Source: a virus. From it: DNA of 23,947 nt. Location of the stretch: IMG/VR virus record IMGVR_UViG_3300012936_000164, positions 1 through 23,947 of that record; one strand, given 5' to 3'. Numbering within the stretch: position 1 is the stretch's first letter; each line of letters begins with the position of its first letter. The translations under genes were made by a program, and so were the position numbers. The notes under the pieces are model-generated. The model was not told the origin of the DNA. It saw only the letters and a list, made by a program, of their open reading frames with translations, and did not search any database. Below are positions 2,274-20,000 of this stretch, in pieces.

Positions 2274-2522
2274 CTAAGTTCGAACATCTGATACTTCTAT
2301 CTTGACATCCTCTTCAAAGTATTTATCTAACATTTCTAACCGCTCATGAGCATGCCCCATAGTAGTTAATTCTTTTTGTATAGCTTCAACTATATCGCTA
2401 TGTTCACCTATACCTGCAGCATTTCTCATATAAACCATTATATTAGTTTTTGCTCGCTCTAATTCACCTTCAGCATGCATTCTACATGCTTTAATTAATT
2501 GCTGACTAAACTTTTGCGCCAT
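2274..2522 (-). CDS. Hypothetical 82 aa protein
   Basis: Unrecognised small cytosolic protein, charged and probably mostly helical (MAQKFSQQLIKACRMHAEGE at the N-terminus). Its ATG overlaps the pseudoazurin stop codon (TAATG), with GGAGAA upstream, which indicates translational coupling. No catalytic motif, signal peptide or membrane helix is visible. Confidence 0.72.
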   Translation of the reverse strand: MAQKFSQQLIKACRMHAEGELERAKTNIMVYMRNAAGIGEHSDIVEAIQKELTTMGHAHERLEMLDKYFEEDVKIEVSDVRT

Positions 2523-2950
2523 TACAAATTCTCCAGTAGTTCTTTCATTTTTCTCTTTGACTTGCCACGTATCTTCACGTCTTTTATATCATCTAGATTT
2601 GACATGTCATCTCCAACAACTACCATAGCAATCATACCCATTGTTGCATGTGGTGTACATTGGTATAAGTAAATGCCGGCTGTATCAAATGTTATTGATA
2701 CTTCTTTATTATTTTTACTTTTTGCTGGAAGCTCCCATCCTTCAGGACCAGCAATAAAATGTACATTGTGGCCTTTTGATTTTGGATTCCAAGTTATTGT
2801 ATCGCCTACGTCAATACGTGCTATATCTTCGGAGTATACCATTTTTGCTCCATCATCACGTTTATTTAACATATCGATTGTTATGTCTGCAGCAAATGTT
2901 GGAACAGACAATGAAGCTATTACAGCTACAGTTGATAAAAATTTAATCAT
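2522..2950 (-). CDS. Pseudoazurin, exported type 1 blue copper protein
   Basis: A 142 aa precursor: a 20-residue Sec signal peptide (Met-Ile-Lys, hydrophobic core, TFA|AD cleavage) and a 122-residue mature domain, the usual pseudoazurin length (about 123). After cleavage the four type 1 copper ligands are His41 (GHNVHF), Cys78, His81 and Met86 (YQCTPHATMGM); the family's classic positions are 40, 78, 81 and 86. The C-terminal helical extension (DMSNLDDIKDVK...) is also typical of pseudoazurin rather than plastocyanin. Pseudoazurins carry single electrons in the periplasm to nitrite reductase, nitrous oxide reductase or cytochrome c peroxidase. The ATG at 2950 (GGAGAG upstream) is preferred over one at 2974 because it gives a clean signal peptide. 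It overlaps the kinase-like gene by 8 nt. Confidence 0.93.
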   Translation of the reverse strand: MIKFLSTVAVIASLSVPTFAADITIDMLNKRDDGAKMVYSEDIARIDVGDTITWNPKSKGHNVHFIAGPEGWELPAKSKNNKEVSITFDTAGIYLYQCTPHATMGMIAMVVVGDDMSNLDDIKDVKIRGKSKRKMKELLENL

Positions 2951-3428
2951 GACTTTCTCTCCATATATTATCAAAGGATCTTAAACCCTTTTTTTCGAAA
3001 TCTTTTTTCAAATCGTGATATGCTTTATTGAGTTTTTCTTCTTTTGTCATGACACCGCATGCATCCCAATCTATCATTTGCATATCATTACCATTTACTA
3101 TTATATTTTCTAACGCCCAATCACCATGACCAAGTGAACCAGTTTCTTGTATATTACTGTGGACAAATTTTAAAACGCGTTTAACAAATTTTATACCACT
3201 ACCAAGAGTTTTAGCATTTACACCAGGAACTGTTTTCATAATAAAAGTCATTCTAGTTGTACTATAAAAAGTATTTATATAATATCCTGGATTCATAGTA
3301 TCAACCATTTTTATATGTTTATGATACCAGTAGTGATCACAATAATCGAATTCTTTTATATAACATCCATTCCCTTTATAAACACGTCTAGTTCCCCACA
3401 TGTCCGATCTGGATTTTACTAAGATCAT
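2943..3428 (-). CDS. Small kinase-fold (aminoglycoside phosphotransferase/LPS-kinase-like) protein
   Basis: This 161 aa protein carries a kinase catalytic core in miniature. LGHGDWALENIIV is the HGDxxxxN catalytic loop of aminoglycoside/choline and lipopolysaccharide kinases, and MQMIDWDACG is the metal-binding equivalent of the DFG motif. The N-terminal part is much shorter than in normal family members; YIKEFD at about residue 25 could hold the ATP-binding lysine. The substrate cannot be told from sequence; small molecules, sugars/LPS or a protein are all possible. It lies between the DoxX-like gene (7-nt gap) and pseudoazurin (overlap). The nearest Shine-Dalgarno (AGAGGAAG) is rather far from the ATG, so the start is less sure than the identity. 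Confidence 0.75.
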   Translation of the reverse strand: MILVKSRSDMWGTRRVYKGNGCYIKEFDYCDHYWYHKHIKMVDTMNPGYYINTFYSTTRMTFIMKTVPGVNAKTLGSGIKFVKRVLKFVHSNIQETGSLGHGDWALENIIVNGNDMQMIDWDACGVMTKEEKLNKAYHDLKKDFEKKGLRSFDNIWRESHD

Positions 3429-3435
3429 TATACAT

Positions 3436-3852
3436 TCATGTTCGGCTTCCTCTTAACGCAAAGTATAAACCACCTACCCATAGAAATACATGTAAATTAT
3501 CATATAATATTACATCCATAAGACTATCAGGTTCTCCTATCCATATGACACCTGTCATAATTGAACACATTACAATACCACAAAAGCGTGTAAACAAATC
3601 GCTTATGCTTCTTATAGTATCTCCAAAAAATTTAAATGCTAGCAATCCGCTAACTATTATGCCAAGTCCTGCACCTAACTCACCATATGTAACAAACCAC
3701 CAAACCAATGGTGATAAGTCAAAGGCTGCGCCATCTTCTATGTCATATGGTAATTTGCTCATACCTTGCTGTAGAAAAATTACAGCTAAAGGTATTCGTA
3801 GTAGCCAATGGCTTAAACAAAACTCAGGTATTTTATTTAATAATCTAATCAT
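3436..3852 (-). CDS. DoxX-like four-helix inner-membrane protein
   Basis: This 138 aa protein has about four hydrophobic helices (roughly residues 15-32, 48-72, 86-108 and 116-134). The first carries WLLRIPLAVIFLQQGMSKLP, which resembles the DoxX signature (RxxLGxxFxxxGxxKL). DoxX family members are small membrane proteins seen with quinone-linked oxidoreductases and, as HvfX, with copper-responsive operons; no single reaction is common to them. The ATG is preceded by TAGGAAG, just after a GC-rich hairpin. Its place next to an exported copper electron carrier suggests a redox or envelope role (inference). A holin is an alternative, but the DoxX resemblance argues against it. Confidence 0.65.
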   Translation of the reverse strand: MIRLLNKIPEFCLSHWLLRIPLAVIFLQQGMSKLPYDIEDGAAFDLSPLVWWFVTYGELGAGLGIIVSGLLAFKFFGDTIRSISDLFTRFCGIVMCSIMTGVIWIGEPDSLMDVILYDNLHVFLWVGGLYFALRGSRT

Positions 3853-3897: not shown

Positions 3898-4083
3898 TTA
3901 TTTTTCTCCAGTTTGTCTCAAGTTCTGAATCTCTAACATACACTTCTTAGCTTCTTCATGATAGCCAAGTGATGTTAATTGAGCTGCAGCTCTTGAATAT
4001 CCAACTACTTCTGCGGTTTGCATTATGGAACTCCATAAACCAAGTAAAGGAGAGATAGTACATTTCATCATAGCTACTGTCAT
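3898..4083 (-). CDS. Hypothetical 61 aa protein downstream of DUF1127 gene
   Basis: Unrecognised. The ATG at 4083 overlaps the DUF1127 stop codon (TAATG), indicating coupling; a GTG nine bases upstream is an alternative start. The N-terminal third is moderately hydrophobic with several methionines (MTVAMMKC, LLGLWSSIM). The rest looks helical (SRAAAQLTSLGYHEEAKKC). There is no signal peptide with a clear cleavage site. The tight pairing with DUF1127 suggests that the two act together or at the same time. Confidence 0.65.
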   Translation of the reverse strand: MTVAMMKCTISPLLGLWSSIMQTAEVVGYSRAAAQLTSLGYHEEAKKCMLEIQNLRQTGEK

Positions 4084-4340
4084 TACACCCACCCATTTAA
4101 ATTAGAGTTGGTTTCACATGATCGCTTATGAGTTGGATCACCATTAGCTATAGCGCGTATGTCACCTCGACCTATTCCGATATCATTCAATTCAGCATCG
4201 GTTAACTGTCTTAGTTCATTTATAGTTTTCTTTACTCGTCTATATTGACGAAGTCTAGAGTTTAGTCCTTTAAGCAGGCGGAACGCCTCCTGTATCGGAC
4301 TCGTTAAGTAATTGCTTACTGTCAGTATGTGTTGTGTCAT
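4083..4340 (-). CDS. DUF1127 (YjiS-like) small protein
   Basis: An 85 aa protein. Residues about 37-62 are a clear DUF1127 domain: an arginine-rich helix (RLRQYRRVKKT) followed by INELRQLTDAELNDIGIGRG and DIRAIA. DUF1127 proteins are abundant in alpha- and gammaproteobacteria. In Rhodobacter a member (CcaF1) binds RNA and affects RNA turnover, and others are stress-linked. The ATG at 4340 (GAGG upstream) overlaps the end of hsp20 by 71 nt in another frame. There is no good later ATG, GTG or TTG before the domain, so the overlap seems real. It may let the phage adjust host RNA metabolism (inference). Confidence 0.85.
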   Translation of the reverse strand: MTQHILTVSNYLTSPIQEAFRLLKGLNSRLRQYRRVKKTINELRQLTDAELNDIGIGRGDIRAIANGDPTHKRSCETNSNLNGWV

Positions 4341-4761
4341 CTTCGGCCTCGTTTTTTCCAATTGAAATTTTACGAGGACGCATTTCTTCAGGGACGACGT
4401 ACTTCAGTTCGATTGCAAGTATACCATCCTGAATATCTGCTCCGTGCACTTGTACGTGCTCAGACAGCCTAAATGTTCGCTTAAACTTCTTAGTAGAAAT
4501 ACCGCGGTGAATAAACTCCCTACCCTTAGAAATATGATCACCAGTTACAGTTAAAGTTCTATCTTTTACTTCTACTGATAATTCATCTTTCATAAAACCT
4601 GCAACTGCCATCTCTATTAGATAATCAGATTCGCCTGTTTTAATTATGTTATGTGGAGGGTAGTGATCGTTTGCATGTTTAGCCGTCCATTCTAGTTCAT
4701 TGAATAAATGGTCGAACCCTACAAATGATGCACGCGGGAATAGTCCTGATAAGCCTGTCAT
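4270..4761 (-). CDS. hsp20: Small heat-shock protein Hsp20 (IbpA-type)
   Basis: This 163 aa protein has an alpha-crystallin domain at about residues 28-125 (YPPHNIIKTGESDYLIEMAV, AGFMKDELSVEV, then GISTKKFKRTFRLSEHVQVHGADIQDGILAIEL). Such proteins are ATP-independent holdases that keep unfolding proteins soluble. Genes of this type are common in marine T4-like phages, near gp43/regA in cyanophages. The chosen ATG at 4761 has a strong AAGGAG seven bases upstream; an ATG at 4785 has none. The acidic tail after about residue 130 lacks a clear I-x-I/V motif except KISIGK, and its coding DNA is shared with the DUF1127 start. The family is certain; a role in virion assembly is inference. Confidence 0.95.
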   Translation of the reverse strand: MTGLSGLFPRASFVGFDHLFNELEWTAKHANDHYPPHNIIKTGESDYLIEMAVAGFMKDELSVEVKDRTLTVTGDHISKGREFIHRGISTKKFKRTFRLSEHVQVHGADIQDGILAIELKYVVPEEMRPRKISIGKNEAEDDTTHTDSKQLLNESDTGGVPPA

Positions 4762-4866: not shown

Positions 4867-5232
4867 TTATTTTGAACCAATGTTATACTTAGGGCAAAGC
4901 TCCCAATCATTCTTTTCTTTAAACGGAATGATCTTTATTTGTCTCATAGGAGCCAAAGGCTCTACTGTAGTATCAATTGATATAAGTCCCCAATCGCTCA
5001 TTAACTGCGCAATTGTATTTCGCCTGGCAATGTCATTTTCTTCTAAGTTTGACTTCTTGCCATCAAGCAAAAATAATTCCTTAAAGTGCACAATAAAGTA
5101 TCTGCCTTGTTTGTGCAAAATATGACAAGATTGATATAGTTTCTTGTCTTTACGTGACGCTACTCCAATACGGGTAAGCGTTTCTCGAACCTTTAAAAAG
5201 TCATCTGGCTCGTTTAGTGTAACCTCTAACAT
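4867..5232 (-). CDS. regA: RegA translational repressor
   Basis: This 121 aa protein (T4 RegA is 122 aa) is recognisable end to end: MLEVTLNEPDDFLKVRETLT corresponds to T4 MIEITLKKPEDFLKVKETLT, followed by LYQSCHILHKQGRYFIVHFK and the C-terminal WELCPKYNIGSK. RegA binds ribosome-start regions of early phage mRNAs, including its own, and blocks translation. The ATG at 5232 is chosen because it matches the T4 start and length. An in-frame GTG at 5271, overlapping gp62 by 14 nt, would add 13 residues and cannot be excluded, since neither start has a strong Shine-Dalgarno. Weak initiation signals would fit autoregulation. Confidence 0.95.
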   Translation of the reverse strand: MLEVTLNEPDDFLKVRETLTRIGVASRKDKKLYQSCHILHKQGRYFIVHFKELFLLDGKKSNLEENDIARRNTIAQLMSDWGLISIDTTVEPLAPMRQIKIIPFKEKNDWELCPKYNIGSK

Positions 5233-5257
5233 AGAGGCAGGTGTCCACTCTATTATA

Positions 5258-5635
5258 TTATTTTCTTCCACCTTTATAAACCTTCTGTTTCAATTCGCTG
5301 AGTTGTTCAGCTGTAAGAAGAGTTAAGGCTTGTCTGGCTTTTTCGTTATTATAACCATAATATTCCTTAACAACATCCACGTCATTATTAGAAACAGACT
5401 TTTGCCATTTTGAAAAGCGTTTCCGTTTCCTGACCATATTTATAAAAAAATCGAATTGTAAACGCTTATCGACTGTGTGATTGACATTCATTTCATTAGC
5501 AAACAATACTGTATCTTGAAAGTAAGATAATGCACGATTAACCATAAAAGGATTATATGCTTTCTCCGCAAGATCATCTACCATAATATCTTTTTTAGTC
5601 ATATTAATAGCATTGACATATTCAAATGGATTCAA
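5258..5635 (-). CDS. 62: Clamp loader small subunit gp62
   Basis: With gp44 this forms the ATP-driven loader that places the gp45 clamp on primed DNA. At 125 aa it is much shorter than T4 gp62 (187 aa) but keeps recognisable segments (NPFMVNRALSYFQDT, LQFDFFINMVRKRKRFSKW) and the position between gp44 and regA. The start codon is TTG at 5635: GGAGGA lies six to seven bases upstream, inside the end of the glutaredoxin gene, and the two genes overlap by 4 nt. An internal ATG (codon 12) is a less likely start. The rare TTG start may hold gp62 output below that of gp44, in line with the loader's 4:1 stoichiometry in T4 (inference). Confidence 0.9.
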   Translation of the reverse strand: MNPFEYVNAINMTKKDIMVDDLAEKAYNPFMVNRALSYFQDTVLFANEMNVNHTVDKRLQFDFFINMVRKRKRFSKWQKSVSNNDVDVVKEYYGYNNEKARQALTLLTAEQLSELKQKVYKGGRK

Positions 5636-5919
5636 GACATGTCCTCCACTCCGCTATCTTGACCAGGCCATACAGTTCGCAATGATTGTAGTAATTGGTG
5701 CTGATCAAACATATTCGTATCAACGTTATTTAATTTTAAATCTTTAAAAAATAATTGAGGCACTGTCTTAAGACCTTGTTCTTTTAAAAATTGCTTACCT
5801 TTAGTATCTTCTGATATGTTTATTGTTTCGTACTCTATACCCCATGAATCTAGTTTACGTTTCATGCTTACACAATATCCACAATCATTTTGAGTATAGA
5901 GTCTAAGTAAATTCGACAT
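5632..5919 (-). CDS. grx: Glutaredoxin
   Basis: A 95 aa thioredoxin-fold protein. Residues about 5-80 match glutaredoxin: LYTQNDCGYCVSMKRKL has the CxxC active site (C14/C17) and GLKTVPQLFF the cis-proline loop. The glycine pair that usually follows (GG-D) is replaced by NNVDTNMF, so glutathione binding may differ. Glutaredoxins reduce disulfides and supply electrons to ribonucleotide reductase; T4 encodes one (NrdC) for that purpose. Here it lies inside the clamp-loader operon, overlapping gp44 by 17 nt and gp62 by 4 nt, so it is made together with the replisome, which suggests support of dNTP supply. Confidence 0.9.
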   Translation of the reverse strand: MSNLLRLYTQNDCGYCVSMKRKLDSWGIEYETINISEDTKGKQFLKEQGLKTVPQLFFKDLKLNNVDTNMFDQHQLLQSLRTVWPGQDSGVEDMS

Positions 5920-6832
5920 TGGCCATTACCTCTGTTAAGCAAGCTACAACGTTGAGCTCGTGATCAGCAACGAATGCATTTTTATATTGATAGTCTGCAA
6001 GAATTAAAACCAGTTGAGGGATAGATGCCGGTGAAACTTTATCCGACATACGATCATATATGGATCTAAAAATTGCAGCTGCATCAATATCTATATTGTT
6101 TACAACCCATGTTCGCATCTTCTTAAAATCTTTTGTTTTTAAATGCGCAAATAAATCGTTATAGTTACTGTCAGATATATTGTCAAGTACACCTAAGTCG
6201 ATTTTACCTGATAAAGAATAACGTTGTAACTCATTAAGAACTCTACGCCAATCAGGAAAATGTTTCATTATGAGTTCAGCCAAAGCTTTATTATCGTATG
6301 AAATGTTTTCTGAATCTAGTATAGTTTGACAGCGCGTCATAAACTCATGACATAGAGTTTGTTTGCTGCCACCATTGAACTCATACACGCCACAACGAGA
6401 ATGTAAAGGCTCAATGATTCTATTCTTAAAATTACATGTTAGTATGAATCTGCAGTTGTTAGCAAACTCTTCAATGAAACCACGAAGAGCTGGTTGTGTT
6501 GACTGCGGATTCAGGTAATCAGCCTCATCAAGGATCACAACCTTATAACCACCTTGAAGCGAGACAGTGCTAGCAAATTGCTTGATCTTACCACGGAGAG
6601 TGTCAATGTTACCTTCTTCGGAACCATTGATCACTATATAATCTAAATCAAGCATATTGCATAGAGCTTTGGCAACAGTTGTTTTGCCTAAGCCAGCAGA
6701 ACCAGTGAACAGCATATTGGGTAACTCACTGGCTTCTACAATTTTATTGAATGTATCCTTTAAAGATTGTGGTAGAATACATTCATCTATAGTTTGAGGT
6801 CGATACTTCTCGACCCATAGAAATTGTTCCAT
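5903..6832 (-). CDS. 44: Clamp loader large subunit gp44 (AAA+ ATPase)
   Basis: This 309 aa AAA+ ATPase opens and loads the gp45 clamp. It begins MEQFLWVEKYRPQTIDECIL (the typical loader W-EKYRP box), then Walker A GSAGLGKTT (about residues 44-52), Walker B VVILDEAD (101-105), sensor 1 region LTCNFKNRI and the SRC motif (145-147) with the arginine finger. The C-terminal part is the oligomerisation domain. Length matches T4 gp44 (319 aa). Shine-Dalgarno GGAG lies six bases before the ATG. Transcription should start near 6849 from its own promoter, with glutaredoxin, gp62 and regA in the same unit. Confidence 0.97.
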   Translation of the reverse strand: MEQFLWVEKYRPQTIDECILPQSLKDTFNKIVEASELPNMLFTGSAGLGKTTVAKALCNMLDLDYIVINGSEEGNIDTLRGKIKQFASTVSLQGGYKVVILDEADYLNPQSTQPALRGFIEEFANNCRFILTCNFKNRIIEPLHSRCGVYEFNGGSKQTLCHEFMTRCQTILDSENISYDNKALAELIMKHFPDWRRVLNELQRYSLSGKIDLGVLDNISDSNYNDLFAHLKTKDFKKMRTWVVNNIDIDAAAIFRSIYDRMSDKVSPASIPQLVLILADYQYKNAFVADHELNVVACLTEVMANVEFT

Positions 6833-6855
6833 TCATAACTCCATTACAAAAAAAT

Positions 6856-6884
6856 ATTATATCACATTTGAGCAAGAATGTAAA
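6856..6884 (-). promoter_or_regulatory. Host-type promoter for gp44 unit
   Basis: TTTACA (6879-6884), 17-nt spacer, TATAAT (6856-6861), with TGA before the -10 (extended -10). It begins right after the stop codon of the 68 aa gene. Predicted +1 near 6849 leaves a leader of about 17 nt containing GGAG. Confidence 0.85.
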
Positions 6885-6885
6885 C

Positions 6886-7092
6886 CTATTCGTCAGTCTC
6901 CATCGCAGCGTCTTGTTGCAAGTTTTCAACAATAGAAATGATTTGAATAGCTTGGTCGCGTAATTGACCAATAGTGGAAAGTTCTTCACCTTTAAATCCA
7001 CCACGTTGTGTAACAGCGTCTACTACTGCAACAGTAGAACGTGATACGTTATTAGCGAGCTTCATTAGCTCATCATACTTTTTATCCGTCAT
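6886..7092 (-). CDS. Hypothetical 68 aa protein between gp45 and gp44
   Basis: Small, probably all-helical protein (KKYDELMKLANNVSRSTVAV, then TIGQLRDQAIQIISIVENLQ). I see no known motif. It overlaps the gp45 stop region (TAATATG) with GGAGAA as Shine-Dalgarno, so it is co-translated with the clamp. In T4 the RNA polymerase-binding protein RpbA is coded next to gp45, but I see no convincing likeness. A clamp- or polymerase-associated role rests only on position. Confidence 0.7.
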   Translation of the reverse strand: MTDKKYDELMKLANNVSRSTVAVVDAVTQRGGFKGEELSTIGQLRDQAIQIISIVENLQQDAAMETDE

Positions 7093-7093
7093 A

Positions 7094-7771
7094 TTATTCT
7101 CCGATTGTTGACGATTTCTCTAGAGCAATCCAGTAACTTACGTTAGTAGACTTATGCTTAAATTGGCTAATTAGTTTAGAAGAGATACTTACCTCATAAT
7201 CACCCGGAATGATTTTCAAATTACCAATGTTAATTACATAATTGAACTTCTGTAAGGATATGGAGGTATGCGGAACATCTATAGAATAGGTATTTGATGT
7301 CGCATTTTCATTGTCTACCACAGAAAGCGTTAAGCCATTTTCACCTGCAGTAACTGATACTTCGTTATGACCTAATGCTGAAGCAGCACTACGCAATTTA
7401 TTTAAAGTATCACCATCTAGTGTGAACTGTACTTCACATTCAGGCATATTAATATCTTTTTGTGGAGACGTAAGTGTTTCTTCTGGAGAGAAGAAATACC
7501 TAATTTTTGATCGACCACTTTGATCGCTGATAGTTACAGACTCATCAGCAAATTTAAGATTAGGTTTGTCGACCAACGATAGTACGCTTATGAACTCTTT
7601 AAGATCATAGATACCAAATTGTTGAGGGAACTCATTATCTACAATTGCAGTGGCCAATACGTTTTTAGCCTCACTAATTGTTTTGATAGTGTTACCTGAT
7701 TTAATTAAAATATTCGGATTGATGTCCGAAAAGTTTTTAAGAACGTTTAACGTTTGTTCTTGTAATTCCAT
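7094..7771 (-). CDS. 45: Sliding clamp gp45
   Basis: 225 aa, equal to T4 gp45 (228 aa). A trimeric ring that holds gp43 on DNA; in T4 it is also the moving activator of late transcription through gp33/gp55. The sequence follows the family: MELQEQTLNVLKNFSDINPN at the start, LATAIVDNEFPQQFGIYDL, and the C-terminal STNVSYWIALEKSS region. Shine-Dalgarno GGAG precedes the ATG after a leader of about 22 nt from its own promoter. The presence of both clamp and gp55 supports T4-style coupling of late transcription to replication, although gp33 is not in this window. Confidence 0.95.
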   Translation of the reverse strand: MELQEQTLNVLKNFSDINPNILIKSGNTIKTISEAKNVLATAIVDNEFPQQFGIYDLKEFISVLSLVDKPNLKFADESVTISDQSGRSKIRYFFSPEETLTSPQKDINMPECEVQFTLDGDTLNKLRSAASALGHNEVSVTAGENGLTLSVVDNENATSNTYSIDVPHTSISLQKFNYVINIGNLKIIPGDYEVSISSKLISQFKHKSTNVSYWIALEKSSTIGE

Positions 7772-7799
7772 AATATACTCCGTGGATTAAACATTATTT

Positions 7800-7828
7800 A
7801 TTCTACCATAGTTCACTGCAATTGTAAA
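7800..7828 (-). promoter_or_regulatory. Host-type promoter for gp45
   Basis: TTTACA (7823-7828), 17 nt, TAGAAT (7800-7805), with TGG before the -10. It starts directly after the gp46 stop codon. Predicted +1 near 7793. The spacer differs from that of the gp43 promoter at only two positions. Confidence 0.85.
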
Positions 7829-7831
7829 CCA

Positions 7832-9544
7832 CTATGCTGCCATTTTACTAAAATTTCTTTCTTTTTTGAATTCAATCTTAGCTTCAAATTTGCCATCAAG
7901 TATTTCGCCTTTATGTGATATAACAAACACGTTAGTATCATCATCAAGTGTATACAATATCTTAAGAAGATTTTCCACACCGTCATGATCGAGCGAAGAG
8001 TCAAACGTTTCATCTAAGATAAGTAAATTAGTAGCTACTGAATTTTTCATCTTAGCGATTTGACGCCATGTAAAGAGAAGCGCTAAGTCAATACGTTGCT
8101 TTTCTCCTTCACTAAATGAATCATATGTAAATGCGTCGCGATGGCGTGAACGTATTGTTTCTTGAAATGATTCATCTAAATTAAAATGGACAAAGAAGTC
8201 TAGCACTTGTAAGTATTGATTAGTAAGCTTATTGATAGCAGGTAAATACTGTTTGATTAGTTTAGTCTTAATGCCAGTATCTTTAAGCATTTCTCCCATT
8301 ACAGAATTATAATTAAACTGTTCAGATATTTCAAACTTCCGCTCTACAAATGATTCTCTTTCTTTTCTCATACCTTCACAATCATTCTTTGCTTCAGTTA
8401 AATCTGCTGCTACCTCTTTGTCTATAAACTTTTGGTACTCTGTAATAGATTTTTGTAATGAAGATATATCTTTATTGTTATCAGCTAAAGTATTTAATTT
8501 AACTCTAAGTTCTTTAGCTATATCCGTAATCTCTTGTATTTGATTCTCTAACACCATACCTTCTTCACCTAGAGATTTAGATGTAGACTTAAGTGATTTA
8601 GCTTCAGTCTTACATTCACTTAACTGGTTGGCGCGCAGATCGTCTGAGATCTCGCCTGAGCACTCCGGACAATAAACATTGGTTTCATAAAACTTAGCAC
8701 GTTTAGCTACTGAAGACATTCTAGTTCGAACATCTTGCGAGTCAAGTAATAAAACCTGTCGTCTATCGTGTAGTTTCTTTAGCTTTTCTTCATTAGCTTT
8801 TATAGCATCATCTAAACCTTCACTTAAAGTATTATTATCTTCTTGTAATTTTTTTATATTTTCTTGAGATTCTGCTATCTTTAGTTCATATTCTTTTTTA
8901 TTATCATCAGTCACTGCTTTTATATCGCGGATGTATTTTTCCTGTGTCTGTATCTTATTAGATTGTATGTCAATCTTATAATTTAAATCTTTTAAACTAT
9001 CACGCAATACAGTTTGCTTTTCTTTTAAAAGATGATTCATTTTTGAAAATACATTAATGTCCAGAAGATCCTCGATGACATCTCTACGATGTCCACCTGC
9101 AAGCTGCATAAATGGAATGAAGGATGAGGAGCCAAGCACTACAACTTGATGGAAACTTTTATGATTAAGTTTCAAGATGTTTTGTTCGAGGATCTTCTGG
9201 TACTCCTTGGCATGCGAAGATTGATTAATCATCGTGCCATTTTTCCATATTTCGAATATACCTGGCCTAATACCACGTATAACTTTAAAACTACTTTTGC
9301 CTACATCGAATTGTACTTCAACTACACAATCTTTATTATTGATTGAGTTTATCAATTGAGGTTTATTAATGTTTCTATGTGGCTTACCAAATAGCGCAAA
9401 TGAAATGGCGTCAAGCATTGTTGATTTGCCAGCACCATTATGTCCTACAACTAATGTAGTCTTATTCCTATTTAAATCTATTTCTGTAAAGGTATTGCCA
9501 GTGGACAAAAAGTTTTTCCACTTAACCATTTTAAATTGTATCAT
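7832..9544 (-). CDS. 46: Recombination nuclease ATPase subunit gp46 (Rad50/SbcC-like)
   Basis: This 570 aa SMC-type ATPase forms, with gp47, the nuclease that resects ends for recombination-dependent replication. Walker A is GHNGAGKST (residues 34-42). A zinc hook CPEC lies near residue 293 between two coiled-coil arms. The ABC signature FSEGEKQRIDLALLF and Walker B NLLILDETFDSSLD follow, then the H-loop VFVISHKGE. Length is close to T4 gp46 (560 aa). Its ATG overlaps the gp47 stop codon (ATGA), so the two subunits are translationally coupled. Confidence 0.97.
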   Translation of the reverse strand: MIQFKMVKWKNFLSTGNTFTEIDLNRNKTTLVVGHNGAGKSTMLDAISFALFGKPHRNINKPQLINSINNKDCVVEVQFDVGKSSFKVIRGIRPGIFEIWKNGTMINQSSHAKEYQKILEQNILKLNHKSFHQVVVLGSSSFIPFMQLAGGHRRDVIEDLLDINVFSKMNHLLKEKQTVLRDSLKDLNYKIDIQSNKIQTQEKYIRDIKAVTDDNKKEYELKIAESQENIKKLQEDNNTLSEGLDDAIKANEEKLKKLHDRRQVLLLDSQDVRTRMSSVAKRAKFYETNVYCPECSGEISDDLRANQLSECKTEAKSLKSTSKSLGEEGMVLENQIQEITDIAKELRVKLNTLADNNKDISSLQKSITEYQKFIDKEVAADLTEAKNDCEGMRKERESFVERKFEISEQFNYNSVMGEMLKDTGIKTKLIKQYLPAINKLTNQYLQVLDFFVHFNLDESFQETIRSRHRDAFTYDSFSEGEKQRIDLALLFTWRQIAKMKNSVATNLLILDETFDSSLDHDGVENLLKILYTLDDDTNVFVISHKGEILDGKFEAKIEFKKERNFSKMAA

Positions 9545-10602
9545 GCAACTTCCAGTGCTTGTGCCTCAGTCATGAGTTCACGCATTTGGACTTTGATTTT
9601 ATCTTTATCCAAATCTGTATCTACACCATCAATATACGAATCAACAATCGTAGTGGTGTCGTCAAACTCAATATCTGTGTCCTCTACATTTTCACCAATA
9701 AATTCATTAAAATTTTCTGCGATCTTCAGCTCATGAATATTCACGCTCTGTACACGATCTACAAATCTATCGAATGAAAATGCATCCTTCTTATTTACTA
9801 CCACAATCTTTACAAACTTCTTTTCTAATTGTGATACATCATAACTATTATAATCTATTTTGTCGTCATTGTAAACAATTTTATGAAATAAAGTATACGG
9901 ATTTTTAATTCTTTCTACTTCACGAGTTTCAGTATCGATAATATGAAAGTACTTAGGATCATGAGCATCTGACCAGAAAAACTCCATCTGCGATCCTAAA
10001 TACCAGATGTTATCTCGTTTAGATCCACAATGGAAATGACCAGTAAGAACTTGTTCAAACTTATTAAATATCTTGTGGTCCATTCCATGTACGCTTTTAA
10101 TACCACGCATCATTTCGAAACCATCAAGCTCTAAGTGAGCACCAAGCCAGTCGGCTTTACAATTTTCTAAGAACGTCATAGTTGACGAATTATTTTCTTG
10201 GTTAATCCATGGAACCATAGCAATCTTTAGAGAACCATATTCCATAACTTTTGGCTCCATAATGATATGCACTTCATTCATGTAATAACCTAATAATTCT
10301 TTTAGAGAATTTAAGTCATTAGTGTTTTTGTAATAAGTATCGTGGTTGCCTGGAATAATATCCATTTGCATACCAGCTTTACGCATAGGATCTAGAAAGA
10401 CTTTTCTATTATGATTGAGAGCCTTAAAATTAACAAACTTACGATGATCATAGTAGTCACCCAAATGAATGATCTGCTTGATATTATGTTCTTCACAATA
10501 CGGAAAAAAGACGTTACCATAGAAATCTGCTGCGTTATTTAAAAATATTTCTGAAGAGTTACGGATACCACAATGAGTATCGTTTAACACTGCTACCTTC
10601 AC
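9541..10602 (-). CDS. 47: Recombination nuclease subunit gp47 (Mre11/SbcD-like)
   Basis: A 353 aa metallophosphoesterase nuclease, partner of gp46. The motifs are in order: NDTHCG (D8, H10), HLGDYYDHR, PGNHDTYY and TGHFHCGS, which supply the two-metal site. Length is near that of T4 gp47 (339 aa). The start codon is GTG at 10602, overlapping the gp55 TGA stop (GTGA), with AGGAG upstream inside gp55. Order 55-47-46 without gaps means one transcript from the gp55 promoter. Confidence 0.97.
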   Translation of the reverse strand: MKVAVLNDTHCGIRNSSEIFLNNAADFYGNVFFPYCEEHNIKQIIHLGDYYDHRKFVNFKALNHNRKVFLDPMRKAGMQMDIIPGNHDTYYKNTNDLNSLKELLGYYMNEVHIIMEPKVMEYGSLKIAMVPWINQENNSSTMTFLENCKADWLGAHLELDGFEMMRGIKSVHGMDHKIFNKFEQVLTGHFHCGSKRDNIWYLGSQMEFFWSDAHDPKYFHIIDTETREVERIKNPYTLFHKIVYNDDKIDYNSYDVSQLEKKFVKIVVVNKKDAFSFDRFVDRVQSVNIHELKIAENFNEFIGENVEDTDIEFDDTTTIVDSYIDGVDTDLDKDKIKVQMRELMTEAQALEVA

Positions 10603-11192
10603 TTCATAAACTCCTGTAAATCTGAATCTACAATCTTAGCTCGTTTCTTTTTTTCTTTTTCCTCTTTAGCATACTGCTGAACTTCTAGATCTGAATGTCG
10701 TACCTTGTCTATTCTATCTCTAAGAGTATCAACAAAGGATCCTACTACTTGCCAACTTCCATCTGACATATCGCCATCAACAAAGTTCTCAATACCAGAT
10801 CTTGTAAGATATTTTAATTTAATGTCTTGTTGCTTCTTTTCTTTTGCTATACGTCTAAGAAATGCATACCATGTTATCTGTGTAAAGTATGCAAAAGCGT
10901 TAGGCTTTCCTGTACGAGTAGCTGCAGCTATGTCATAATTCTCGACTGCTTTAAGACAATTTTCAACTGCGTCCATTACCATTTCTTCGCGATATGTATA
11001 GCGAATAAAATTAGATTTGTGAGACAAACCTTCAGCGATACTTAGAAAACACTGAGCTATATAATCTGGTACTACTGGAAGAGTTTTACCTGCGTCTTTA
11101 GCGTCATTGACTGTATGTACATAAGCTACTACGGCATTAGAAAAATCAGCGTTATTAACATAGTGGGCGCTTTTTTTATTTTTACGTGCCAT
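10599..11192 (-). CDS. 55: Late-promoter sigma factor gp55
   Basis: 197 aa (T4 gp55 is 185). It directs host RNA polymerase to TATAAATA late promoters, such as those seen at 16105 and 23131. Recognisable segments: HYVNNADFSNAVVAYV (compare T4 YNYVNNKELLQAIIDW), CFLSIAEGLSHKSNFIRYTY, MVMDAVENCLKAVENYD and NAFAYFTQITWYAFLRRIAK, the region 2-like core. The ATG at 11192 is chosen because AAGGAA lies upstream; an ATG at 11207 has no such site and precedes the predicted leader by only a base. It is first in the 55-47-46 unit. Confidence 0.93.
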   Translation of the reverse strand: MARKNKKSAHYVNNADFSNAVVAYVHTVNDAKDAGKTLPVVPDYIAQCFLSIAEGLSHKSNFIRYTYREEMVMDAVENCLKAVENYDIAAATRTGKPNAFAYFTQITWYAFLRRIAKEKKQQDIKLKYLTRSGIENFVDGDMSDGSWQVVGSFVDTLRDRIDKVRHSDLEVQQYAKEEKEKKKRAKIVDSDLQEFMK

Positions 11193-11214
11193 ATCAATTC
11201 CTTTCAATAACTAT

Positions 11215-11243
11215 ATTATATCATAGTATATCATTAATGTAAA
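11215..11243 (-). promoter_or_regulatory. Host-type promoter for the 55-47-46 unit
   Basis: TTTACA (11238-11243), 17 nt, TATAAT (11215-11220), TGA extension before the -10. Predicted +1 near 11208, leaving a 16-nt leader with AAGGAA before the gp55 ATG at 11192. The rest of the gap, 11244-11348, is the longest gene-free stretch in the window, and I see no RNA gene or further signal in it. Confidence 0.85.
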
Positions 11244-11348
11244 ATTTTATTTTTGCTGTTAAGCTGCGCGAATAATTAAATTAGGGGGTGTACAACCATG
11301 TAATACTGGTGTATAATAGTAGAGTACTGGCTGAGGATGGAGGTACCA

Positions 11349-11819
11349 CTAATGTAATTTCGTACCCGGCGGTGTAAATTGTATAACGTTATCGGTTTCT
11401 TCTTCTGAGTCGTCCCACATGTCCTCATTATCCATTTTTTCTAGTTTCATCTTTAGATACTCGCGCATCTCATCATTATTTAAATTTGCAACCTCAGTTA
11501 CTATCTCATCAATATTAAATTCTTTTTTCTTTTCCATCTTTTTAATTTGATTCATTGCTTCAGTATAATGCAACAATAAAGCAGCAGAAGGAGACGTTTC
11601 ACCAATGATATGACCAACATTTAACACAGTTACTTCACTTACATTATCCTGAAATGACATCCATGGTTTAAACGAATAATATCTAACGCCATTATCGAAA
11701 TCTTCAGCATGAAATATTTTTAGCGCATTGCGTAGTACAAGATCGCCTTCTTCAACGATTTCTAATATTTCTGCAACTATTTCGTCGTTATTCGTTAGTT
11801 TAAACTGTTTTAAATTCAT
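11349..11819 (-). CDS. Hypothetical 156 aa protein after uvsW, possible Sm-like N-terminal domain
   Basis: Conserved in position between uvsW and 55. The first about 75 residues (MNLKQFKLTNNDEIVAEILE, then DLVLRNALKIFHAED and RYYSFKPWMSFQD) have the strand pattern of a small barrel such as Sm/LSm. The C-terminal part is very acidic (DMWDDSEEETDN). LSm proteins bind RNA, but this assignment rests only on pattern and is tentative. The ATG overlaps the uvsW stop (ATGA), so it is co-translated with the helicase. Confidence 0.8.
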   Translation of the reverse strand: MNLKQFKLTNNDEIVAEILEIVEEGDLVLRNALKIFHAEDFDNGVRYYSFKPWMSFQDNVSEVTVLNVGHIIGETSPSAALLLHYTEAMNQIKKMEKKKEFNIDEIVTEVANLNNDEMREYLKMKLEKMDNEDMWDDSEEETDNVIQFTPPGTKLH

Positions 11820-13306
11820 AAGTCTATTACCGATGTTGTATAATTAAATTCTTCTTTATTATATATCTTTAATCTTTCGAATGAATGTATTAAAGAAAAG
11901 TTCTTTCGTTTTAACCAACTAATATCGTCAGATATATCGTAAAGTGTTGTCTCACGCCCGTCGTCACTTTTTCGTAATCCTCTACCAATTGACTGCAATA
12001 CTCGTATTTGAGATTTGCTTGGTGAGGCAAATACAATATTATGTAGGTTCCTAATATTTATACCTGTTGAAAAGGTACCTAGTGAAGCAACTACAATTGC
12101 ATTCGACATACTTTCAACTATTCCTCGTATCGCTTCTCTATCTGATACGTTAGTTTCGCCTGATACAAAATACACTTTTTTGTTTTCAGATTTATCTCTT
12201 ATCATATTATATAAAGGCTTACCATGTTTATCTACATAATTATATAAGACTAATGTATTACCTTTTAAATCTAATGATAAATTTCTTATGAATTTATTTC
12301 TTTTTTCGTGCGCTACAATATAATCTATTTCTTCTTGGTATGTTTGTTTACCAAAGTCTTTTCTAATTTGCTCTGGATAATTAAGAACAACTCTCTTAAT
12401 AGAAAGCGGGGCTAGCGTATCATTATCTTGTAACTTCTTAGTTGTTGTGACTTTATAGATCTTGCCAAATAATCCTTGCAACACCAGTTCATGTGTCTGT
12501 GATCCATCTAGTGTGCCTGTAGTACCAAACCTGTATTCAGCTTCCGTACATTTATTCATTATATTCATTAATGATTTAGATTTAAAACCATGCACCTCAT
12601 CACCAAACACACAGCCAAATTGTTCGAACCAAACCTTAGGCAACTTATATATCGATTGCCATGTGGATATAACAATAGCAGAGTCTACAGCTTTATCTTT
12701 ACCAGAATAAATTCTATGCATACCTCCTTCAGGCATACCGTACTTTATAAAATCGCTGTGCATTTGTTCTACCAATGATGTAGTAGGAACGATGATAAGA
12801 ACTCTACCACCTTTAGGGTATCCACGTCCGTCACTTAAAAAATTTAACCAATACCTAGCTAATGCATATATCATGTAAGATTTACCAGAACCAGTAGGAG
12901 ATAATAAAATCGCGCGTTTTCGTACTAAACCTTCGCCTACTGATTGGTATTGATAATCACGTAAAGGAAATGGTAAATCTAAAGTATTTAAATAATCACT
13001 GAGCTGTGTTGGACTTATATGAGTTCTATCGTCTGCTTTACCATACTTGCTTTCTTCAGAAACTAATTCATAATCTCTTTTATCGCAAAATTCTTTTAAG
13101 TGGTAATATAGACCAACAGGCAAAGTTTTTTCGTTTAAAGCGAATAAACGTATTTTACCATCCCACATCCTATTACGAAACGCAGGCATAAACTTATAGC
13201 CAGGCACAAAGAAAGAAAAGAACTCATTCAGTTCTTGAGCTGTACCATTATCGCACGTAACGTTTAATGTAGAGTGATTTAATTTCCTGACTCGAACTGT
13301 TTCCAC
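11816..13306 (-). CDS. uvsW: Recombination helicase UvsW
   Basis: A 496 aa superfamily 2 helicase; in T4 (about 500 aa) it unwinds R-loops and branched DNA and drives the switch from origin to recombination-dependent replication. Motif Q-like region RDYQYQSVGEGL, Walker A SPTGSGKSY (about 137-143), motif Ia IIVPTTSLVEQM, motif II GDEVHG (236-239), motif III TGTLDG, and motif VI QSIGRGLRKSDDGR are all present. The start is GTG at 13306, overlapping uvsY by 28 nt in another frame. A late-promoter box lies about 40 bases upstream inside uvsY. Confidence 0.96.
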   Translation of the reverse strand: METVRVRKLNHSTLNVTCDNGTAQELNEFFSFFVPGYKFMPAFRNRMWDGKIRLFALNEKTLPVGLYYHLKEFCDKRDYELVSEESKYGKADDRTHISPTQLSDYLNTLDLPFPLRDYQYQSVGEGLVRKRAILLSPTGSGKSYMIYALARYWLNFLSDGRGYPKGGRVLIIVPTTSLVEQMHSDFIKYGMPEGGMHRIYSGKDKAVDSAIVISTWQSIYKLPKVWFEQFGCVFGDEVHGFKSKSLMNIMNKCTEAEYRFGTTGTLDGSQTHELVLQGLFGKIYKVTTTKKLQDNDTLAPLSIKRVVLNYPEQIRKDFGKQTYQEEIDYIVAHEKRNKFIRNLSLDLKGNTLVLYNYVDKHGKPLYNMIRDKSENKKVYFVSGETNVSDREAIRGIVESMSNAIVVASLGTFSTGINIRNLHNIVFASPSKSQIRVLQSIGRGLRKSDDGRETTLYDISDDISWLKRKNFSLIHSFERLKIYNKEEFNYTTSVIDL

Positions 13307-13725
13307 TTAATCATATTACCTATAGTTTGATGTCGCCAATTAAGATTATTTATAATCTCTGTTAGCGTTTCAATTATGGTCTTATAGTACTGTATCTTTT
13401 CTTCAGACTTTTGTATCTCAGGATCTGAATCATAGTAATGATCCATTTCACCCTTTAATATTTTTAGACCATTAAAAGGATCTGGATTCCAACCTTTGTC
13501 CTTTAACTCTTCTTCTGACATCTTGCCATTATAATATAACCACTTGTCTTTTAATAAAGACTTTTGTGCAAACTCAGCACGTTTTAACATAAGCTTTGTG
13601 TGAGATAACATTTCTAGATATTTAGCATGCAACACTGGTGTAACACGCGATGATTCATCTAGATTAGTTTGTTTTATCTTGCAGTCTTCTGACCACATTT
13701 CATGTATTTGCTTTAAGTCAATCAT
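13279..13725 (-). CDS. uvsY: Recombination mediator UvsY
   Basis: 148 aa (T4 UvsY 137 aa). It loads UvsX recombinase onto gp32-covered single-stranded DNA. The match to T4 is modest but colinear: the start MIDLKQIHEMWSED, the middle LLKDKWLYYNGKMSEEELKD, and the end NLNWRHQTIGNMIKWKQFESGN against T4 IKHIQDMRAFEAGK. The gene also sits directly upstream of uvsW. The ATG at 13725 has no Shine-Dalgarno, and the strong promoter ahead of it places +1 on that A, so the message should be leaderless. Confidence 0.88.
   Translation of the reverse strand: MIDLKQIHEMWSEDCKIKQTNLDESSRVTPVLHAKYLEMLSHTKLMLKRAEFAQKSLLKDKWLYYNGKMSEEELKDKGWNPDPFNGLKILKGEMDHYYDSDPEIQKSEEKIQYYKTIIETLTEIINNLNWRHQTIGNMIKWKQFESGN
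13347..13354 (-). promoter_or_regulatory. Possible late promoter for uvsW inside uvsY
   Basis: A perfect TATAAATA on the minus strand about 40 bases upstream of the uvsW GTG, within a 7-bp perfect inverted repeat (13343-13358: AGATTAT-TT-ATAATCT). In T4, uvsW is expressed late from its own late promoter, so the position is meaningful. The same box also occurs by chance in AT-rich coding DNA (see rejected items), so this is moderate evidence. Confidence 0.5.
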
Positions 13726-17032: not shown

Positions 17033-20000
17033 TTAAGCCTGCGATTCGCCCCATGTAATTCTTGATGATGCAGTAAATGGCTGACTTGCGTTAATTGATG
17101 ATGTATCAACAACTTGTACAGCAACTGTTAGAATATCAGGCCCGTTAGGGAAGATACCGTTACCGCCTAAGATTGAGTTACCCATATCAACCAAGTCTCC
17201 TAGTGAGAAGTTAGATGTAGATGAAGTACCATCGGCACCACCCGAAGCTCTAAAGGAGAATACTTCGTTACCACCAGTAATTTGATCACCTGATTCATGT
17301 TTGATCAATTGTGACAATGATGGAGATCTAACATTTTCCCAAGAAACTGTACTAATATCACCATTTAAGATAAGTTTAACTTCGCAGTCATGCGTTAGAA
17401 TCATACCAACTTCATTTAGTTTTAACTGCATTCGGTTAATGATATCTCTTTCACCTAAATCACCAGTCAAGTTGTTATCAACAGATGGCGCAAGTCTAAG
17501 TGACACTAGCGGGATAACGTCTGTACCTAAGTTAACATCATCTCCACCTGAAGCTGGTGCACCGATGTTGACTGTAGTTCCGCTACTAACTACTGGATAA
17601 GTACCTGAACCTGGAAAGCTATAACCAGAAGATATGTAAATGTGAACTCTAAAAGTAGATCCACTATAGTCTGTATACGCAACTTCTTGACCATTCAACT
17701 CATTGTTTGAAGTATAGAGTTTTGTACCAGTGTTAAACTTAGATGCATCACTTGAACTAAACGGTAATCTTACATAGAAGTCATACTGTCTTGTACCTCT
17801 ATTGTATCTGTAAGATAGAGATGAATTGCCATTAGTGTTAGCACTATTTGTTTGACCGTTTGTGAATGTTAAGTTTTTCGAAGGAGCAGTAAATAGATAT
17901 GCATTATCGTCATCAAACGTACCATCCATGATAACCGATGTACCCCAATGGAATAGCGTTGGAGCATACGTTGGATTTTCATCGTTTTCAATTTCATACT
18001 TAGCAGGTAAGTTACCAGATCTCATATAAGCTTCGTCCAACCTGTTGTTGTGAATAAACTCATGAGCATATCTAACGTGACCTTTACGATCTTTAAATCC
18101 AAATCTAATTTTACCAGCACCGTACCATGAGTAATCCATGTATGCCATTTGAATTTTAGATGTATTTAAGTTAAATCCTTGTTTTCCGCTACCATCGCAC
18201 TTATCTAAGTTCCAATCAGATTGTGCAACTCTAACATCAACTGTTTTTGTAAGGATAATACCATCACTGGAAATACCTCTATATTGTGGCTGAACAAACA
18301 ATTCTGTTCTACTATTAATTTTAACAATCTTATATGTTTGTCCACGGATAACTACTTTATCATTTCTTACAAGCTGCCCGCTAAAGTTAGTGTTTGTACC
18401 TACGATACGTCCACTTCCTTTAACTGCTTCTACTGTACCAGATAACTGTGTAGTTGATGAACGTCTTACACAGTGTAGTACAGTGCCATCCCATTCAAAG
18501 AAGAATCCGTTTTGGTTATCAAACATACCAGCTCTAACAAAAGAACCTGAATACCCATTAACTACATACTGTATGATACCTGAAGGAATCGAAGCGTTAG
18601 GAGCTTGCGCAGCAGTGTAGGTAAAGTTATAATCATCTACGACACTAGCTACTGATTGAACACCATTATACGCACCATCCGATGCACCTTCAATTGTTAT
18701 TTGCATTCCAACTGCCAGTCTATGAGGATACTTTGTCCTACATCTAACTGTTGTATCTAGCGAGTTAATTGTTTCTAAAATAACAGGTGGGTTGAAGTTA
18801 ATAGCTAATGATGTTTGAATACCTTTACCTGACTGATAACGGAAATATTTTCTTGTTTGTCTAGTAATCTGCGAAAGTGGTGCAGTACCAGCGCCAATTT
18901 CAACACCACCATCAAATGGTCTGTGTACTGAGTAGCCATCAGGTTTTGCGTAAATATTAGTTTTTACGAAGTGAGTAGCGTCAGATTTACTAAAGTTAGC
19001 CGGTGTTGTAAGTTCCATGTTTTCATCATCTGAAATAACAGCAATGGTATGCTCATCTAAACGACCTGGAGTTGATGAATCATTCTTAAAGAATATTGTA
19101 TCACCAGATTTAAAGAATCGTTTAAAGAGTGTTTGGTTACCAGTAACCTTTTTGGATCCGTCTCTAACAATAACTGTACCAGACGCACCTGTTCTACCAG
19201 CAATCGATGTTGTTGTAATCTGATGGAGCTGTGCACCGCCCGCAGAGTCAGAAGCTAATTGAATTGGATTAATACCAACTATAGCATCTTGTCCGTTACC
19301 ATGTAAGCTAAGATAGTTATCGTCAATTGCATGTACATAATATGTGTTGCCATTTTGTAAACCACCTAGTCCGCTGTCAGAAGAATGACTGTACACTACC
19401 TTTGTACCAGATAAGAAATTGTGTCCACCAAAAGTCTGTATGGTAGAAGAATCAGCACTATCGGCTTTTAGTATTTCTGTATTACCTTCAACTAAGAAAG
19501 GTGTGTTAAGGGTAATAAATTCATCGCCTACAGATTCAGCAGAGTAAGATCCATCGGCTGCCCCTTGTACATCAGATAATGCAAACTTCATAAGGTTAGC
19601 ACTATCAAAACCACTGCCGCTATCTGTTAGGTCTATTAAGGCTCCAGCATTTGAAACACTAAATCTATTGTTATTAATAACATTAGCAGTTAATGTATCA
19701 CCTACAGTGAATGATGGATTTAAGAAATTCGCATCAACACCTTGAATGATAGCGTTAACTAAGTTAACCATTTTGCTGTTATTAAAGTTGAATGATGTGT
19801 TACCAGCAAAGAATAGTCTTACAGTAACTTCATCTTGGTTATAACTGCTATTGTACAGATATGAATATGAGTTATATGAATTATATCGATAGTTATATGT
19901 GTACAATCCGCTACCGTTAGTGCTATAACCGGACCATCCTTTGTTCGGCGTAGTTTTACCGAATGTAAGCATTAATTGTACAAATTCAGAAGAATACTGC

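Follow-up and report, generated by a model that had tools for sequence, protein, structure and literature searches.

A phage-encoded pseudoazurin with a recurrent DoxX-family neighbour: a candidate supplement to the respiratory electron transport of marine bacteria

In cyanobacteria, it is established that phages supplement the electron transport of photosynthesis. In the part of the open-access literature covered by the search, neither a phage pseudoazurin nor DoxX among auxiliary metabolic genes was found, and a link between DoxX and pseudoazurin has to our knowledge not been described previously. Marine phage genes for respiration and heme include nirK and norB (PMC8115048) and a viral 5-aminolevulinate synthase (PMC11480375); azurin, cupredoxin and plastocyanin are unmentioned in the main text of both papers, as are DoxX and copper in the latter.

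The DNA considered here, referred to as the window, is a whole virus record of 23,947 bases. A preliminary description, made from its letters alone, had proposed that positions 2522-2950 encode a pseudoazurin that is exported and has its type 1 copper site intact, that is relevant to respiration rather than to photosynthesis, and that more specifically would pass electrons to the reductases of nitrite or nitrous oxide or to cytochrome c peroxidase. Alignments, profile matches and a predicted model bear out the first part of this proposal. The relevance to respiration is supported as well, whereas the specific donor role is not supported as stated. The preliminary description had missed two further features of the system, namely that the protein is a member of a large viral family and that a DoxX gene is the conserved neighbour of these viral pseudoazurins.

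The pseudoazurin gene in its phage operon

The features of the window on which the argument draws, all on the minus strand, are the following.

2274..2522 (-), phage protein phrog_1811 (PHROG match), whose start codon overlaps the pseudoazurin stop
2522..2950 (-), pseudoazurin precursor, 142 aa, ATG to TAA (open reading frame, Pfam, NCBIfam, PDB and model)
2891..2950 (-), putative signal peptide, residues 1-20, MIKFLSTVAVIASLSVPTFA (n/h/c regions and TFA-A cleavage site, by eye)
2956..2962 (-), Shine-Dalgarno-like GGAGAGA, 5 nt ahead of the pseudoazurin ATG (sequence)
2943..3428 (-), 161-aa open reading frame between DoxX and pseudoazurin, whose stop overlaps the pseudoazurin start (sequence)
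3436..3852 (-), DoxX-family helical membrane protein, 138 aa (Pfam DoxX E 1.2e-6; neighbourhoods; model pLDDT 87)
3898..4092 (-), small conserved cassette open reading frame (cluster C3, 19/43 listed viral loci)
4083..4361 (-), DUF1127 cassette protein (Pfam E 1.7e-11; cluster C2, 19/43 listed viral loci)
4867..13725 (-), T4-like core, overall span (RegA, clamp loader A, gp44, UvsW, UvsY)
4867-5271 (-), RegA (Pfam)
5258-5635 (-), clamp loader A (Pfam)
5903-6832 (-), gp44 (similarity to phage C48C1)
11816-13306 (-), UvsW (similarity to phage C48C1)
13279-13725 (-), UvsY (Pfam)
within the core (-), gp45, gp46 and gp47 (synteny with phage C48C1)

RegA, clamp loader A and UvsY pass their Pfam cut-offs, UvsW and gp44 are respectively 55% and 71% identical to their counterparts in phage C48C1, and the gene order of the window is largely that of C48C1 and of the OM43 phage Melnitz. 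No near DNA match to the window was found among isolated phages. The same gene order, with 89% protein identity, is repeated in five contigs from different samples (L001-L005), and overlapping start and stop codons lock the pseudoazurin gene into the phage operon. The gene is viral because it shares the record with a T4-like core, overlaps phage genes at both ends and keeps its place in the repeated order. Chance origin of the 2522-2950 reading frame as a pseudoazurin gene is excluded. The adjoining frame at 2943-3428 has a weak match to APH-like phosphotransferases (E 0.0012, under the cut-off), the phage also encodes a glutaredoxin and Hsp20, and a very tyrosine-rich frame of 1901 aa at 17033-22738 is probably a tail fibre protein. 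A promoter scan was uninformative, with 17 matches vs 11.4 expected.

Regarding the precursor, its N-terminus, MIKFLSTVAVIASLSVPTFA followed by AD, has a Sec-type layout as judged by eye, so that mature numbering is counted from A21; a simple signal-peptide heuristic was passed by 72 of 81 viral relatives. Export by Sec to the periplasm is therefore predicted from these residues. The mature protein of the window has a pI of 5.9, and the charge of the mature forms does not separate viral from cellular pseudoazurins.

Relatives of this pseudoazurin can be found on at least 312 IMG/VR contigs (241 and 312 in two scans), and on none of 50,697 records of isolated phages, where the nearest proteins are cyanophage PetE plastocyanins with at most 30% identity. 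The gp23 and terminase families, taken as virus markers, were each matched in only 3 contigs, a low number that probably reflects the fragmentary state of most of them. Two of the viral loci deserve mention for their other neighbours: a Mom-family DNA modification gene lies directly behind the pseudoazurin-DoxX pair in L010 (6288-7097), and L031, which also has pseudoazurin, carries an aminotransferase class I/II gene like 5-aminolevulinate synthase (12112-13314).

Copper site, fold and family assignment

The His-Cys-His-Met type 1 ligands occur in the order and spacing of pseudoazurin, and alignment places the four residues named in the preliminary description at the positions of the ligands in crystallised pseudoazurins. 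All four are invariant in viral alignment A1.

2768..2770 (-), copper ligand His41 (precursor His61)
2657..2659 (-), copper ligand Cys78 (precursor Cys98)
2648..2650 (-), copper ligand His81 (precursor His101)
2633..2635 (-), copper ligand Met86 (precursor Met106)

The four-ligand motif is kept in all 81 extracted viral copies (58 distinct sequences), and in A1, which aligns 21 viral sequences, the ligands and MLNKRDDGAKMVY are invariant, an invariance owed partly to the choice of sequences since such stretches doubled as search patterns of the scan. Viral pseudoazurins are under purifying selection, with dN/dS ranging from 0.06 to 0.27 in 13 of 16 pairs; among the other three pairs, dS is saturated in two and no amino acid is changed in one. 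Judging from ligands and model, the protein would be loaded with copper. At the position of Lys77 of Alcaligenes-type pseudoazurin, a residue in contact with the partner protein, the window protein has Gln, as does 3tu6.

The best PDB sequence match of the window protein is pseudoazurin 3tu6 (E 7.5e-25), and it also matches Pfam Copper-bind (E 2.2e-15). Among cupredoxin profiles, NCBIfam TIGR02375 pseudoazurin is the best by far (E 5.7e-30), with amicyanin, halocyanin and plastocyanin far behind. Its score of 103.5 bits lies about 6 bits under the naming cut-off of 109.85, which is passed by viral L039 (115.8) and cellular L093 (112.1) but missed by other relatives; since related viral and cellular proteins score on either side of it, the shortfall is treated as a threshold effect inside one clade. 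The identities of amicyanin (TIGR02657, 52.5 bits vs 110.2 required) and of plastocyanin (PetE, 35 bits vs a cut-off of 87.85, and the low identity to cyanophage PetE given above) were tried and rejected. Structure prediction agrees with the profiles: an AlphaFold model built from the 21 viral sequences (pLDDT 82) retrieves pseudoazurins as its top 27 matches in the PDB (rmsd 1.4-2.0 A) and displays, as had been proposed, a C-terminal extension, predicted as two helices (119-123 and 130-141). No pseudoazurin was found by the same kind of search in a viral fold library, where a giant-virus blue copper protein is the best match and cyanophage plastocyanin comes fourth.

DoxX neighbour, cellular relatives and host

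DoxX is a large family whose function is poorly known. The window member exceeds the Pfam PF07681 gathering score (29.5 vs 23.6 bits); a PDB fold search with its model gave nothing significant, and neither this protein nor the DUF1127 protein has a match among isolated phages. Clustering of neighbours identified DoxX as recurrent beside viral pseudoazurins, together with two small genes, those of DUF1127 and of 3898-4092. Forty-three loci were listed, L015 and L016 encoding an identical pseudoazurin, so that 42 are non-redundant: DoxX lies on the strand of pseudoazurin in 28 of these and on the opposite strand in none, and in 23 the two genes overlap or abut (gap of -16 to +41 nt). The pairing spans several distinct gene neighbourhoods. 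About one third of the viral pseudoazurin loci have no nearby DoxX; many contigs are fragments, and some of these loci have nearly 10 kb of flank on each side. Starting from DoxX, 22 of 79 viral loci have pseudoazurin in reach, one of them as a truncated match at a contig end, and most have none inside about 3 kb. The phage-typical DoxX family is widespread among marine viral contigs, with 135 carrying it, and often occurs without pseudoazurin.

Among alphaproteobacterial genomes, the centre genome being omitted, a marine-type pseudoazurin is present in 3 of the 4 that have a close DoxX, vs 10 of 384, a difference (p 5e-5, uncorrected for relatedness) that is weak since the genomes are related. 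In G259 and G160, DoxX adjoins a pyridine-nucleotide-disulfide oxidoreductase. From gene order, DoxX would probably be the functional partner of pseudoazurin at the membrane; we know of no established biochemical role of DoxX in such a setting.

A genome scan found cellular relatives mainly in marine Alphaproteobacteria (Rhodobacteraceae, OCS116, Pelagibacterales and others), and phylogeny points to the same group as the bacterial origin of the viral gene. In a tree based on a short alignment (143 columns), in which many forks are open, 40 of 43 viral rows fall into one supported clade (99/96) inside marine alphaproteobacterial pseudoazurins, and the other three lie close to SAR11-like rows. 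Only seven cellular rows can be found in the main viral clade: five with Rhodobacteraceae or Paracoccaceae labels, L105 among them, as well as L187 and L086, the latter with a Flavobacteriaceae label. The host is thus most likely a marine alphaproteobacterium, as judged from this tree. L086, in which DoxX adjoins pseudoazurin, is a phage-like contig in a bin and possibly misbinned, and the same may apply to L105, from a Rhodobacteraceae-labelled bin, which resembles phage too. The Rhodobacteraceae genome G004 (C41, C69; locus L087) has an ordinary pseudoazurin together with a phage-like one that is 81% identical to that of viral L054.

The neighbours of cellular pseudoazurins vary by lineage. 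In G259 the gene is flanked on one side by a PQQ methanol/ethanol dehydrogenase of xoxF type, a methanol-related cytochrome c and a MoxJ-like gene, and on the other by pqqE and pqqB, an arrangement seen in part in G026. In L336 and L337, from small-genome marine Alphaproteobacteria, pqq genes lie on one side of pseudoazurin and a methanol dehydrogenase cluster of xoxF type on the other. AhpC and AhpD lie near it in L330, L335 and L095; 5-aminolevulinate synthase also adjoins it in L335 and belongs to its AhpC/AhpD neighbourhood in G365. By eye, an MsrA-like gene adjoins pseudoazurin in L104, L106 and L107. No obvious functional neighbour was seen in OCS116, and no denitrification gene, by eye and by family matches, at the cellular loci inspected. 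Elsewhere, in SAR11 of the Benguela upwelling, pseudoazurin has been found between nirK and cbb3 genes (2026; PMC12816887).

Possible roles and comparison with known systems

The balance of these observations tips, without great force, towards a viral auxiliary metabolic gene whose product is a functional pseudoazurin supplementing the aerobic respiratory electron transport of the host. The infected cell would make the viral protein, export it by Sec and load it with copper in the periplasm, where it would act as a one-electron carrier of the aerobic respiratory chain, taking electrons from the quinol-oxidising side or from dehydrogenases of the periplasm and delivering them to terminal oxidases of the host. 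In this way it would help to sustain the energy supply during infection. Most of these phages would provide DoxX alongside it as a membrane partner. This reading is weakened by the loci in which only one of the two genes is seen, by the failure of the DoxX model to match any PDB structure and by the Gln in place of Lys77. A search of 46 viral contigs with profiles of the COX1 family (oxidase/NOR) and of PF00034 cytochrome c found neither gene. Because both are missing from these contigs, the phage seems to add no enzyme chain of its own but a carrier for use by enzymes of the host. The same result, together with the fact that most cellular relatives adjoin other genes, argues against the specific donor role as first formulated. 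Aerobic respiration is the most general use of such a carrier, stress repair, methanol oxidation and denitrification being candidates as well.

Stress or redox repair, in which pseudoazurin would supply or drain electrons for periplasmic repair of peroxide or methionine-sulfoxide damage, or would buffer copper, appears unlikely. The AhpC/AhpD and MsrA-like neighbours of the cellular copies described above favour it, as do the glutaredoxin and Hsp20 of the window phage and an ECF-sigma regulon of Sinorhizobium meliloti that lists pseudoazurin, sulfite oxidase and cytochrome (PMC6180224); however, none of the genes recognised next to the viral copies is a peroxide or Msr gene, and the neighbours differ at other cellular copies. 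Rather doubtful is an extension of the respiratory reading into a two-protein shunt, in which electrons would pass from the quinone pool to DoxX, then to pseudoazurin and on to terminal oxidases, bypassing or supplementing bc1 during infection. That pseudoazurin instead passes electrons at low oxygen to the reductases of nitrite, nitric oxide or nitrous oxide, partly as the preliminary description had it, would agree with the classic role of these proteins, with the Benguela SAR11 locus and with the presence of nirK and norB in other marine phages, but the lack of a COX1-family gene on the 46 viral contigs and of a recognised denitrification gene beside viral copies or at the cellular loci inspected makes it quite improbable. 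Still harder to credit is a service as acceptor of PQQ dehydrogenases in support of XoxF methanol oxidation by the host, a role suggested by the arrangement in G259 and partly in G026, since this is found in one lineage only, which the tree places apart from the main viral clade. As for cellular contamination or a chimeric assembly, relatives do occur in bacterial bins, some of them resembling phage contigs (L086, L105), but the order shared by contigs of independent samples, the codon overlaps at both ends of the gene and the presence of T4-like genes elsewhere in the 24-kb record refute it for practical purposes.

If the supplementation of aerobic respiration is taken as the working reading, viruses that infect non-photosynthetic bacteria of the ocean may supplement the respiratory wiring of their hosts, much as cyanophages do for photosynthesis. 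The principle would then extend to the respiration of some of the most abundant cells of the ocean, apparently heterotrophic marine bacteria; viral upkeep of host respiration would become testable, phage fitness would be linked to copper supply, and DoxX would gain a candidate redox partner.

Relative to known phage electron carriers, the protein and the probable type of host are different and the gene partner is new. With bacterial pseudoazurins (TIGR02375; 3tu6, 1paz, 1adw) the window protein shares a putative signal peptide, the predicted cupredoxin fold and C-terminal helices, and the His-Cys-His-Met site with near-identical numbering, but it is about 40% identical to them and carried by a phage; unlike the Alcaligenes-type protein, it has one extra residue ahead of the first ligand and, as noted, Gln for Lys77. 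The window DoxX is, like other members of PF07681, a small helical membrane protein, but it belongs to a phage-typical subfamily that has no match in isolated phages and is linked to pseudoazurin. The window protein would resemble cyanophage plastocyanin (PetE, phrog_515), also found in T4-like phages, in being a phage-encoded, exported blue copper carrier; the plastocyanin is at most 30% identical to it, does not have the C-terminal helices and serves photosynthesis, and we know of no DoxX partner for that protein. Viral nirK/norB (PMC8115048) and the viral 5-aminolevulinate synthase (PMC11480375) are, like the present gene, marine phage genes for respiration or heme, but they encode enzymes, whereas pseudoazurin is a carrier.
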